Shown: positions 59,738 to 64,000 of the stretch, piece after piece | Layout: every line of letters begins with the position of its first letter | How positions within the stretch are numbered: the stretch's first letter is position 1 | Assembly (NCBI RefSeq): GCF_029891575.1 | Contig: NZ_JARZHF010000001.1 | Location: 310,001 to 374,000, forward strand | DNA length: 64,000 nt | DNA from: Salipaludibacillus daqingensis | GTDB lineage: Bacteria; Bacillota; Bacilli; Bacillales; Salisediminibacteriaceae | Reading direction: 5' to 3' | The notes under the pieces: model-generated | Database searches by the model: none | What the model saw: the letters and a program-made list of their open reading frames with translations, nothing else | What the model was told of the DNA's origin: nothing | Program-made: the position numbers and the translations under genes

Positions 59738-61627
59738 TTACGCACGTTTCCTCTTCTTCGGAATAATTTGCTCCACTTGAGTAACAACATTTTCTGTAGT
59801 CAATCCAATTTCTTCAAGTAACTCTGGAACACTCCCGTGTTCAATATATTTATCTGGAATACCCATTCTTTCCACAACCATCGTATGGTGGTGATTTTCA
59901 TGGAAAAATTCTAATACAGCACTTCCAAATCCACCTAATAGAGCCGTCTCCTCCAACGTTAAAATTGGACGATGACTTTTCGCAAGTTCTGTTAATTTAT
60001 TATGATCTAACGGTTTGATAGATCGAGCATTAACCACTTCAACATTTATGCCTAGAGCATTTAATTTCTCCGCTGCTTCCATTGCAACTGGGATCATTGT
60101 TCCAAAGGTTAAAATAGAGAGATCTGTTCCTTCTTTTAATATTTCCCATTCTCCAAGAGGAATGACTTTCAATTCCTCGTCCATCTTGACCCCTAAACCA
60201 GCGCCTCTAGGATAGCGTACTGCGATTGGTCCATCATCGTAACATGTTGCTGTATAGATCATATGTTGAAATTCATTTTCATCTTTAGGACATAATATTT
60301 TCATATTCGGCAAATGGCGTAAATAAGAAACATCAAAAACTCCTTGGTGTGTTTCACCATCAGCGCCTACTAGACCCGCTCGATCTACAGCAAAAAAGAC
60401 GTTTAAGTTTTGCCTACAAACATCATGAACTAGCTGATCGTATGCCCGTTGTAAAAACGTTGAATATATCGCCAATACTGGTTTCATTCCTTGAGTAGCT
60501 AAACCTGCTGACATTGTCGTTGCGTGTTGTTCAGCAATGCCTACATCAAACATGCGAGTTGGAAATTCTTTAGCAAACTTATCAAGTCCTGAACCACCCG
60601 GCATCGCTGGAGTAATCGCAACGATACGTTCATCTTGTCTTGCAATTCCTTTTAATGTTTCTGTAAATACTCCACTATAACTAGGCGGTCCTGGTTTTTT
60701 CACCACTTCCCCTGATTCGATTTTATATGGTCCAAGGCCATGCCATGTTCCTTTTGCATCGTTTTCTGCAGGAGCATATCCTTTTCCTTTTTTAGTGATA
60801 ACATGCACAAGAACAGGCCCTTTTGTCTTTTTAGCGTATTTCATGTTCGTTTTTAAATCTTCTAAGTCATGGCCATCGACTGGTCCAAGGTATGTGAATC
60901 CCATCTCTTCAAAAAACATTCCTGATACAAGCAAATATTTTAAACTGTCTTTTACTCTTTCTGCTGTTGCCGCTAACCTGCCTCCAAAAGCAGGGATTTT
61001 CTTGATCAACATCTCTAGTTCTTCTTTTGCTTTTTGATACTTTCCTGCGGTTCTCATTCGTCCTAGCATGGAATGCAACGCTCCGACGTTTGGCGCAATT
61101 GACATCTCATTATCATTAAGGACGACAATCATATCTGTTTGCTCATGTCCGATATGATTAAGCGCTTCCAATGCCATACCTCCAGTCAGAGCGCCGTCTC
61201 CAATAACAGGAATAACGTAATTATCTGACCCTTTCAAGTCTCTTGCAAGAGCCATTCCCATTGCTCCTGACAATGACGTTGAACTATGCCCTGTTTCCCA
61301 GACATCATGCTTACTCTCTGATCGCTTGGGAAATCCACATAACCCTTGATACTGGCGAAGGGAACCAAATTGGTCCGCTCTCCCAGTTAAAATTTTATGC
61401 ACATAGGCTTGATGTCCCACATCCCATAAAAATTTATCTTTAGGACTATCGAACAATTGATGTAGAACAAGTGTTAACTCGACCACTCCTAAATTAGGAC
61501 CTAAATGCCCCCCCGTAACAGAGAGGTTTTCAATTAAAAATTTCCGAATATCCTTAGCAAGGTCTTCTAGATCTTTGTTGCTGTAATCTTTGACAAATTT
61601 AGGTTCATTTATGCTTAGCAAATCCAA
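59738..61627 (-). CDS. dxs: 1-deoxy-D-xylulose-5-phosphate synthase
   Basis: First enzyme of the methylerythritol phosphate pathway to isoprenoids, 629 residues. Thiamine diphosphate motif [17 protein letters not shown]; conserved [11 protein letters not shown] with the binding His; [16 protein letters not shown] with the catalytic Glu; and the C-terminal transketolase domain. TTG at 61627 follows GTGAGGG. Next to ispA and the OLE/OapA locus. Confidence 0.96.
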
Positions 61628-61636
61628 GAAAAACCC

Positions 61637-62254
61637 TCACTTTCTTTTATTATTCTTATTACCCTTCTTTTTACGTTTATTATCTTTGAATATGGTTATT
61701 TTCAATTTTACCTCTAAAAAGTAAAATAATCTACCCACATGGTCTATGATCTCCGTTGAAAACTGAATAGCTACTGTTTTTCCTACAGATTTACCGCCTA
61801 CAGTCAAAGCTGCAACCACACTCGTAAACAAAACAGAAATAGCAAATTGCACATTGGAACCCTCTTCATAGCCCATTTGTAAACCTAATTGGATAACGAC
61901 ATAAGCAGAAGCCGTTCCACTAATGACACCTGCAATATCACCAATAACATCATTTGTGAAATTTGAAAATCGATCAGCATTTCTTGTAATCATCACGGAT
62001 TGTTTCGCACCTGGTATTTTTTCTGCAGCCATCGCATGAAAGGGCTTCTCATTAGCTGCCGTTGCTGCCACACCAATCGTATCAGAAATAACCCCGGTCA
62101 ATACGATAAAGAAAACAATCATCATACCAATACCCCAGCTTACCCCACTTAGAACTGCTGTTGAGACAATGGAAAAAATAGCCGCCAGCACCAAGGTGAT
62201 AACGGCTACTATTAAACTCCAATTTAACGATTTTTTCAACGAATTCTTCATCAT
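61637..62254 (-). CDS. oapA: OLE-associated membrane protein OapA (DUF21-like)
   Basis: An integral membrane protein of 205 residues with about four helices: residues about 13-37 (LIVAVITLVLAAIFSIVSTAV), about 42-60, and two more around 105-125 and 140-160, then a very basic tail (DNKRKKKGNKNNKRK). The conserved GVISDTIGVAATAANEKPFH resembles the DUF21/CNNM transmembrane domain. In Bacillus halodurans this protein binds OLE RNA at the membrane. ATG follows AAAGGAAG. Located between OLE RNA and dxs, the established OLE context. Confidence 0.85.
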   Translation of the reverse strand: MMKNSLKKSLNWSLIVAVITLVLAAIFSIVSTAVLSGVSWGIGMMIVFFIVLTGVISDTIGVAATAANEKPFHAMAAEKIPGAKQSVMITRNADRFSNFTNDVIGDIAGVISGTASAYVVIQLGLQMGYEEGSNVQFAISVLFTSVVAALTVGGKSVGKTVAIQFSTEIIDHVGRLFYFLEVKLKITIFKDNKRKKKGNKNNKRK

Positions 62255-62277
62255 TCATCAACTTCCTTTAAAATACA

Positions 62278-62308
62278 TTAGCACCTACTTCATTTTCGTA
62301 GGTGCTAA
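62278..62308 (-). terminator. Hairpin between OLE RNA and oapA
   Basis: TTAGCACCTAC and GTAGGTGCTAA form an 11-base stem with a loop, followed on the minus strand by TGTATTTT. It is 24 bases upstream of oapA and about 140 bases after the OLE 3' boundary. It may terminate the RNA partly, so that only some transcripts reach oapA. Confidence 0.6.
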
Positions 62309-62448
62309 TGCATTCTCCATATTCCGGCAGCAATGCTATTATACATAGCTTGTCTTCTTTTAAAGCTTATTATTTTAAAATATGTGTGATATTAAACAAA
62401 TTCATAAAACCCACAAATAATTTGTCTCAACCAATTCAAATATGTAGT

Positions 62449-63032
62449 GGCGAGTGGTCATTCAAAGAGTTAAAACTGCGCCTTAGGTCCAGTAGGTTTT
62501 CCCAAGTGAGTACCTCAGCGTCGCCGCTGTGACGGTTTCCCATTAAACTCACCTTGACGCTGTCACCAAACGTCAGACTGGATTACCACTTAGAACGCAC
62601 TATAATCCCCTTTAAATGTCCTGTGGAACAGTCTAGGAGTTTTCCTCGACAGTTCTTATCCATCCTCTATCCTCTTTTGCAGAGACGATTTCATATGAAT
62701 GATTGCTAATGAATACAACCTAGCATTCATAATCCCCTCGTACTCCACTCAAGGCAGGCTACGCTGCTCACAAGTTCCCGAAACTTGCAATGCAGGTTCA
62801 TACCCTCACACGTAATACCGTCGGTTTACGGTTACCACATGGAAGGGCCTCCGCGGCTAGAGGGTCAACGCCCACATGCCATTGTGGATCGCCCTCAAGC
62901 CTTTACTCCCAATCATGACCCAAGGCTGGGCGCCTCAAGCCATACCTAGGAACTTCATCGATGTGCCCTTTAGCGGATTTTTAGGCCCGCTTTCGAAAAT
63001 GGAGAACCGACTAGAATACTGCACCACTCACC
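62449..63032 (-). ncRNA. ole: OLE RNA (ornate, large, extremophilic)
   Basis: A 584-base GC-richer non-coding stretch on the minus strand between ispA and oapA, the genomic context that defines OLE RNA in extremophilic Firmicutes. The ends GGTGAGTGGT and ACCACTCGCC pair over all ten bases (one G-T), giving the closing P1 helix that sets the boundaries. No open frame is visible, and short self-complementary stretches are frequent (for example GGCGCCCAGCC, CCTCTAGCCGCGGAGGCC). Identity rests on context, size, P1 and structure density; a covariance search was not run. OLE RNA forms a membrane complex with OapA that is linked to cold, ethanol and metal stress. Confidence 0.9.
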
Positions 63033-63038
63033 TTATTA

Positions 63039-63068
63039 ATTATACCATGATATGAATACGTCAGACAA
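63039..63068 (-). promoter_or_regulatory. Promoter of OLE RNA
   Basis: TTGTCT (63063-63068) and TATAAT (63039-63044) lie 18 bases apart. The predicted start, seven bases after -10, falls exactly on the first base of P1 at 63032. It sits in the gap after ispA. Confidence 0.65.
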
Positions 63069-63119
63069 CATACAACGACTAGCAATTTCACCATGATTTA
63101 CTAAAAACATAAAAACTAG

Positions 63120-64000
63120 TTAACTTGTGCGAGATCCAATATAATCAACCAAACCAAGCAAAATATCTTTGTCTATCTCTACATTATTAAGGTGATTCTT
63201 CGCACTACTTAAGTGAAAAGATAACTTCTCTTTAGCACCTTCCATTCCAAGTACTTTCGGGTATGTTGTTTTGTTATTTGTCTCATCACTGCCTACTGGT
63301 TTTCCGATTTTGTCTTCATCACCTTCAACGTCTAGGAGATCGTCTTTAATTTGAAAAGCTATACCTAGATGCTTGCCAAATAACTTAAGTTCCTTCGTTT
63401 CAGTCTTTGTCGCTGAAGATAAAATCGCTCCGCACTCCAATGCAACAGAAAGAAGATCTCCCGTTTTTCGATGATGAATATGTTGTAATTGTTCTACATC
63501 GAGCAGTTGATCTTCCCCTTCCATATCTTCTACCTGTCCACCAACCATCCCCGTTGGACCTGACGCAGCTGCAATTTTGCCGATTACACTCACTTTCTTG
63601 TCAGCTGACAAGTAGTCTAATCCAGCGATCAACTGAAAACTATAAGTTAAAAGCCCGTCTCCAGCTAAAATAGCTAAAGCTTCTCCAAAAACTTTATGAT
63701 TTGTTGGTTTTCCGCGCCGTAAATCATCATCATCCATCGCAGGTAGGTCATCATGAATTAAAGAATACGTATGAATCATTTCTAAAGCACAAGCGACATC
63801 ATAACCGTTAGTTAACGGTTGCCTAAATCCTTTTAATGTAGCTAAAAGCAAAATAGGTCGAACCCTTTTTCCTCCTGCTTCAAGGGAATAGATCATCGCT
63901 TCTTTTAGTGAAGCTGGTGCCTTTAATTCATTAATAAAATTAGGAAGTAACCGATCAATTTGCTTTTTCTCATCTTCTATAAATTTATCTAATATCGGTT
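63120..64000 (-). CDS. ispA: Farnesyl/geranylgeranyl diphosphate synthase IspA, N-terminus outside the window
   Basis: Condenses isopentenyl diphosphate with allylic diphosphates to farnesyl diphosphate. At least 293 residues are visible, starting inside the N-terminal helix region (PILDKFIEDEKKQIDRLL); the frame is open to the right edge. Conserved GGKRVRP, the first aspartate-rich motif HDDLPAMDDDD and the second FQIKDDLLDVEGDE are all intact. The gene precedes OLE RNA, and its product feeds dxs-derived precursors onward. Confidence 0.95.
   Translation of the reverse strand, partial: PILDKFIEDEKKQIDRLLPNFINELKAPASLKEAMIYSLEAGGKRVRPILLLATLKGFRQPLTNGYDVACALEMIHTYSLIHDDLPAMDDDDLRRGKPTNHKVFGEALAILAGDGLLTYSFQLIAGLDYLSADKKVSVIGKIAAASGPTGMVGGQVEDMEGEDQLLDVEQLQHIHHRKTGDLLSVALECGAILSSATKTETKELKLFGKHLGIAFQIKDDLLDVEGDEDKIGKPVGSDETNNKTTYPKVLGMEGAKEKLSFHLSSAKNHLNNVEIDKDILLGLVDYIGSRTS

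Follow-up and report, generated by a model that had tools for sequence, protein, structure and literature searches.

An OLE RNA gene beside oapA in Salipaludibacillus daqingensis, and the altered P9 arm of OLE RNAs in its family

The window, that is, the whole 64,000-nt stretch of Salipaludibacillus daqingensis DNA that was analysed, was scanned with Rfam at the gathering threshold, and OLE and one tRNA were found. The OLE model RF01071 (gathering score 50 bits) matched positions 62438-63043 of the minus strand over its full length (model positions 1-616 of 616) with a score of 502.7 bits and an E-value of 1.1e-145; this is the one OLE match in the host genome. Counted from one end of its closing helix to the other, the OLE RNA occupies 62449-63032 (minus strand), with the outermost pair formed by positions 63032 and 62449, and its length of 584 nt is exactly that given in the first-pass annotation. 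According to ORFs and Pfam matches, the gene order on the minus strand is, from 5′ to 3′, ispA, OLE, oapA, dxs and genes for an S4-FtsJ protein, an arginine repressor and a RecN-type protein. The polyprenyl synthetase gene ispA (63120-63998, minus strand; PF00348, 202.4 bits) has its 5′ end beyond the window edge. The ORF at 61637-62254 (minus strand) was identified by its homology to the protein of Halalkalibacterium halodurans as oapA, encoding the OLE-associated protein A of 205 aa, and dxs is located at 59738-61627 (minus strand; PF13292, 396.6 bits). The full-length match on the minus strand and the neighbouring genes bear out the earlier proposal of an OLE RNA-oapA locus in an isoprenoid gene cluster, with OLE between ispA and oapA and with dxs downstream. 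By homology and gene order, the OLE RNA gene is genuine and lies next to that of its partner, oapA; the locus, the partners and the gene neighbourhood are all already known for OLE. The RNA is carried by all 35 sampled genomes of the window's family, including its own, and by 17 of the 25 other members of the order. A plasmid origin of the locus was rejected, as no match was found in the plasmid collection. OLE is one of the largest RNAs conserved in bacteria for which, to our knowledge, no biochemical task has been established. The OLE dimer is recent knowledge, obtained with protein-free RNA.

The closing helix P1 is formed by a 5′ arm (63023-63032) and a 3′ arm (62449-62458), both on the minus strand. 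It had been described as perfect; the helix is indeed present with 10 pairs, but the word was slightly generous, given that nine of them are Watson-Crick pairs and one is a U.G pair. Across the 35 family members, the longest closing helix comprised 6-11 pairs and reached at least nine pairs in 28, compared with 147 of 4,020 shuffled 3′ segments (201 rows from the window's family and others, each shuffled 20 times; 13 of 214 rows, all from outside the family, had no anchor for the helix analysis). Pairs 8 and 9 are represented by several pair types among the family members, with a bias toward standard pairs because the helices were chosen as the longest.

A promoter-like site, TTGTCT-18-TATAAT with a TG ahead of the -10 element, was found at 63039-63068 (minus strand), just upstream of the helix. 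The scan of the region alone proves little (6 sites against a shuffle mean of 4.7), and the promoter call is therefore based on conservation: the top-scoring site immediately 5′ of the helix reached at least 9/12 in 31 of the 35 family members (3.0% in shuffles) and at least 10/12 in 24 of them (0.5% in shuffles). This conservation across the family backs the earlier suggestion that the RNA has a promoter of its own, reading from 63068 to 63039. The pattern is also common outside the window's family, where at least 9/12 was reached in 95 of 162 loci (3.8% in shuffles). The published description of the H. halodurans cluster treats it as one polycistronic transcript (PMC12265935), so the putative OLE promoter would be an addition to that picture, made on sequence evidence only. 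A scan of 61600-63200 revealed no terminator-like site. An inverted repeat of 13 bp, enclosing a 9-nt loop, lies in the spacer between OLE and oapA (62276-62310, minus strand). A dispersed repeat was considered as its source and rejected, since the 9-bp core pattern has one site only in the genome. A 12-bp relative of this repeat with the same core AGCACCTAC was observed at locus L030 of a genome of the same genus (G007).

Genes for the OLE partners OapA, OapB, OapC and bS21 are all encoded in the host genome. OapA is 71% identical to the H. halodurans protein over residues 5-191, and the H. halodurans locus (L116) likewise holds OLE and oapA together; no Pfam or NCBIfam match for OapA was found at an E-value of 0.001 and no PDB match at an E-value of 1. 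The OapB candidate is a 100-aa KOW protein that matched the PDB entry 'OLE-associated protein B' (114.8 bits, E-value 1.9e-32), and the ORF upstream of it was recognised by eye as what we take to be methionine aminopeptidase. The OapC candidate is an 82-aa L7Ae-like protein that matched YbxF structures and scored above the cut-off of an NCBIfam L7Ae-like model; its gene is flanked by ORFs that, judged by eye, presumably encode RpoC and RpsL. The bS21 gene is represented by rpsU. CNNM proteins (MpfA family) were not found in the host genome at an E-value of 0.001. A strong CNNM match was obtained in one of the eight genomes of the window's genus, in 18 of the 35 OLE-bearing genomes of its family and in all 25 other members of the order, including the OLE-bearing ones. 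The anticorrelation of OLE and CNNM/MpfA described in PMC11332333 thus agrees with what is seen in the host genome, but its family does not follow it clearly. The 18 CNNM-containing family genomes are more than the anticorrelation, as described there, would suggest.

According to the accessible descriptions of the Clostridium OLE cryo-EM structures (PMC12286853; PMC12265935; PMC12412911), the dimer has three bridges, namely B1, formed by the A-rich loop L4, B2, formed by L5, L6 and L7, and B3. The latter is described as a kissing loop between the P9 tips with the palindrome GGCC, or GAUC or AGCU in some relatives (PMC12286853). The bridge assignments used here are taken from these published structures, while the RNA of the window is known from its sequence. 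Its P9 arm, taken as the sequence flanked by the conserved elements CCUUGAG and UGAAA, is located at 62694-62747 (minus strand); arm measurement and alignment showed that it is shortened to 54 nt and contains no GGCC palindrome, i.e., B3 is absent. The P9 arm of H. halodurans (L116), in contrast, is 72 nt long and carries GUCGGCCAAC, which the window's arm lacks, and the B3 kissing loop published for Clostridium (nucleotides 315-318, GGCC) has no counterpart in the window.

The P9 arm was measurable in 238 of 243 loci, and 213 rows were kept for the counts, 35 from the window's family and 178 others. Among the rows dropped were 14 named loci of the window's family, 13 of which matched genomes already counted; the remaining one, L095 from Alteribacter natronophilus, has a 51-nt arm with GAUC only in the stem. 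Twelve loci of a recheck of split OLE genes (low-scoring OLE variants included), five loci without both P9 anchors and one identical sequence were also dropped. A palindromic tetramer was counted wherever it occurred beyond base 12 of the arm, whether or not it was in the loop. With this test, arms that are both long (57 nt or more) and palindromic were found in 156 of the 178 rows outside the family and in 0 of 35 inside it, and 22 of the 178 OLE RNAs outside the family lack such an arm. Note that the phylum-level rows in these counts are biased, consisting of the 30 best-scoring loci and 14 added mostly for short OLE length, eight of which were short. The tetramer was GGCC, GAUC or AGCU in 155 of the 156 and CCGG in L006. 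The four GGCC columns are gaps in all 35 family members, and two family arms of 33-34 nt (L027, L191) have a GGCC or AGCU tetramer in their stems. All 17 OLE-bearing members of the order outside the family have long palindromic arms of 67-76 nt. In one of them, L006, the P9 palindrome GACCGGUC replaces GGCC; it is not among the three named in the text of PMC12286853. In the class-level set, which comprised all 56 loci over the cut-off among 200 genomes searched, 13 were short, the window's own included. The P9 kissing loop is therefore a common but not a defining feature of OLE, and it is absent in the window.

A FastTree analysis of OLE without the P9 columns (support values left out of account) placed the window's family in one clade. 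Parsimony gave at least seven changes of the P9 state over the sampled OLE tree, and hence B3 has probably been lost several times over. Other OLE columns changing in step with the loss of P9 were sought, and none was convincing; one column, OLE 389, differs. A statement that high-scoring OLE RNAs of the window's family lack the P9 kissing loop was not found in the OLE literature searched, namely the accessible texts of PMC12286853, PMC12265935, PMC12412911, PMC11332333, PMC9723947 and PMC12054373, with supplements and most subscription papers outside the scope of the search.

The loops assigned to the other bridges are retained. The P4 hairpin (62973-62990, minus strand) carries the A-rich loop CUAAAAAU, which forms bridge B1 in the published structures, and the P5.1 loop GCCCA (62924-62934, minus strand) and the P6.1 loop CAANGGC (62872-62887, minus strand) belong to bridge B2; the CAA motif of the latter is the published bS21 site. 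By the published descriptions of the C. acetobutylicum and C. botulinum dimers (PDB 9MCW, 9LCR), their L4, L5 and L6 loop sequences are the same as in the window. CUAAAAAU, GCCCAG and CAANGGC are each present in 35 of 35 family members. Outside the family, they were found in 152, 145 and 154 of the 154 long-arm rows and in 21, 19 and 21 of the 21 short-arm rows, respectively, with three rows omitted that had too little flank; the scoring covered L4, L5.1 and L6.1, and the P7 loop, also part of the published B2, was too variable to score. Since the three loops occur in short-arm rows too, they persist once B3 is gone, and B3, absent while the B1 and B2 loops are intact, looks dispensable or exchangeable as far as sequence comparison can tell. 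The retained loops support a dimer without B3 but do not show it, and they could instead serve protein binding. Between P4 and P5.1, the P4a/J4a element with the palindrome AUCGAU (62949-62965, minus strand) has the commonest form, found in 30 of 35 family members; its role as a contact region for OapA and OapC comes from the published papers. A strengthening of B2 offsetting the loss of B3, in the form of a G at the variable L6.1 base, was considered and rejected: this G was found in 0 of 35 family members, and independent pairs were unsupportive. Outside the family, it was present in 9 of 22 short-arm and 17 of 156 long-arm rows.

The arms of the window's family form a graded series. Its genera are referred to here as g1 to g8, with g1 for the window's genus, g3 for Texcoconibacillus, g4 for Evansella, g5 for Alkalicoccus and g6 including Salisediminibacterium. 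The P9 arm is 67 nt long in g3, 51 nt in g8, 49-55 nt in g1, g2 and g4, and 31-39 nt in g5-g7; arms of 46-56 nt were not found among 179 rows outside the family. In a FastTree phylogeny of OapA, IspA and partial Dxs (support values again left out of account), g3 and g8 are apart from the rest, followed by most g4 genomes, then two g4 genomes with g2, and then g1 with g5-g7, so that g4 is not one clade on this tree.

All these characteristics lead us to an explanation that we regard, taken as a whole, as highly probable. The locus would comprise a gene for OLE RNA that is sited ahead of oapA and dxs and transcribed from a sigma-A-type promoter of its own. By homology, its RNA would form a membrane-bound particle with OapA, OapB, OapC and bS21. 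According to published work, the particle of the relative H. halodurans helps the cells to grow when stressed by Mg2+, cold, alcohol or the carbon source, and the one considered here may do the same. We infer that bridge B3 was most simply lost in the common ancestor of the family, with the arm shortened afterwards and the L4, L5.1 and L6.1 loops of B1 and B2 unchanged meanwhile. The dimer would most likely be held by B1 and B2 alone, and the P9 tip of several genera may have been reused for another contact. A more specific version is offered only tentatively, with somewhat less than an even chance: the family would have swapped the symmetric P9 kissing loop for this tip, which makes a different contact (with a new partner or as an AU-rich kiss), and nearly the whole arm would later have been lost on one branch.

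The tip is the family-specific apical motif CUAGGUUGUA (62714-62723, minus strand), in which each of the 10 columns is the same in at least 18 of the 19 genomes of g1, g2 and g4, with the next bases of the loop variable. Such conservation could mean that the tip is a binding site for some family-specific protein or RNA and has nothing to do with dimerisation. We consider this possible but on the doubtful side: no candidate partner was found for CUAGGUUGUA, and the tip is missing outright in g5-g7 without a matching change elsewhere in OLE. The sequence ACAAC was examined as a receptor for the tip inside OLE and was rejected, as it belongs mostly to one hairpin near OLE 481 and does not occur in every genome; of the 19 genomes with the tip, 11 have it, and of the 12 without, none.

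It is somewhat less likely that B3 was replaced rather than lost, with the new P9 tip kissing via an AU-rich palindrome (UGUAUACA or GUAUAC) that was subsequently lost by decay in Salipaludibacillus and Alkalicoccus. GUAUAC or a longer palindrome is indeed present in the g3 genome, in all three g8 genomes and in seven of nine g4 genomes, and the predicted pairing of two UGUAUACA strands (L028) amounts to -8.8 kcal/mol, equal to that of two 8-nt GGCC loops (-8.9 kcal/mol). The CCGG-centred palindrome of L006 mentioned above would likewise be a substitute for GGCC. However, palindromes of this type were found in 0 of 8 g1, 0 of 2 g2 and 0 of 12 g5-g7 genomes, and UGUAUACA is absent from the window's own arm. 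Moreover, the chance of an AU-rich palindrome in shuffled sequences was 0.02-0.47 per sequence, the sequences being related; for the g4 palindrome UGUAUACA it was about 0.07, i.e., weakly unlikely by chance, again among related sequences.

The shortening of P9 down to a mini-hairpin and the repeated changes of its state over the OLE tree would also be expected if the arm were just decaying, with no new function and with OLE drifting or on its way out. This is unlikely in view of the strongly conserved tip in 19 genomes, the well-conserved B1 and B2 loops and promoter, and the short stems, which stay paired by compensatory change. In g1, g2 and g4, 18 or 19 of the 19 stems are paired at each of eight pairs, and pair 5 is A-U in nine and G-C in nine. 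Each of the first six pairs is formed in 11 or 12 of the 12 g5-g7 stems, where several pair types are seen. In the register used, only one of the three g8 genomes can form pairs 6 and 7. The predicted stability of the window's P9 arm is unremarkable: its z-score is -1.44, and equal or better folds were obtained for 18 of 200 shuffles. Two copies of AUUCAU are available as pairing partners of AUGAAU within 62694-62731, which gives two folds, and the best fold of the arm differs with the stretch folded.

Finally, a variant 1 OLE RNA as published (TANB77 clade; PMC11332333) would share the shortened P9 with the window, but this reading is very improbable. As described there, variant 1 has P7 and P8 shortened as well, and the OapB site is often lost. 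In the window, P7, P8 and the OapB site appear present, hairpins taken for P7, P8 and P13 being seen in the Rfam alignment, and the score of 502.7 bits is not the weak one expected of variant 1 (the published 'full-length' cut-off of 390 bits comes from a different model).

Under the preferred explanation, with B3 lost and the B1 and B2 loops kept, the main interest of the locus is the altered P9 arm rather than the boundaries of the RNA. A family that is naturally without one dimer bridge provides natural deletions, in which the bridge can be tested without mutation. If such RNAs still dimerise and protect cells, the P9 arch would be an accessory; if they do not, dimerisation would be optional for OLE. 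If the swap of the kissing loop for the new tip were true, a membrane RNA particle would dimerise via B1 and B2 only. The arm series (67 nt; 49-55 nt with the new tip; the 31-39-nt mini-hairpin) offers matched RNAs for structure work.

In four phylum-level genomes, two or three OLE matches were obtained, and split OLE genes were considered for them; the location of most pieces at the start of a contig suggests broken assemblies instead, and this candidate was rejected. A 74-nt OLE match of 22.9 bits, below the cut-off, was observed at L217 (genome G164) and is possibly a decayed gene; the four other OLE-bearing members of the family of this genome have short P9 arms.
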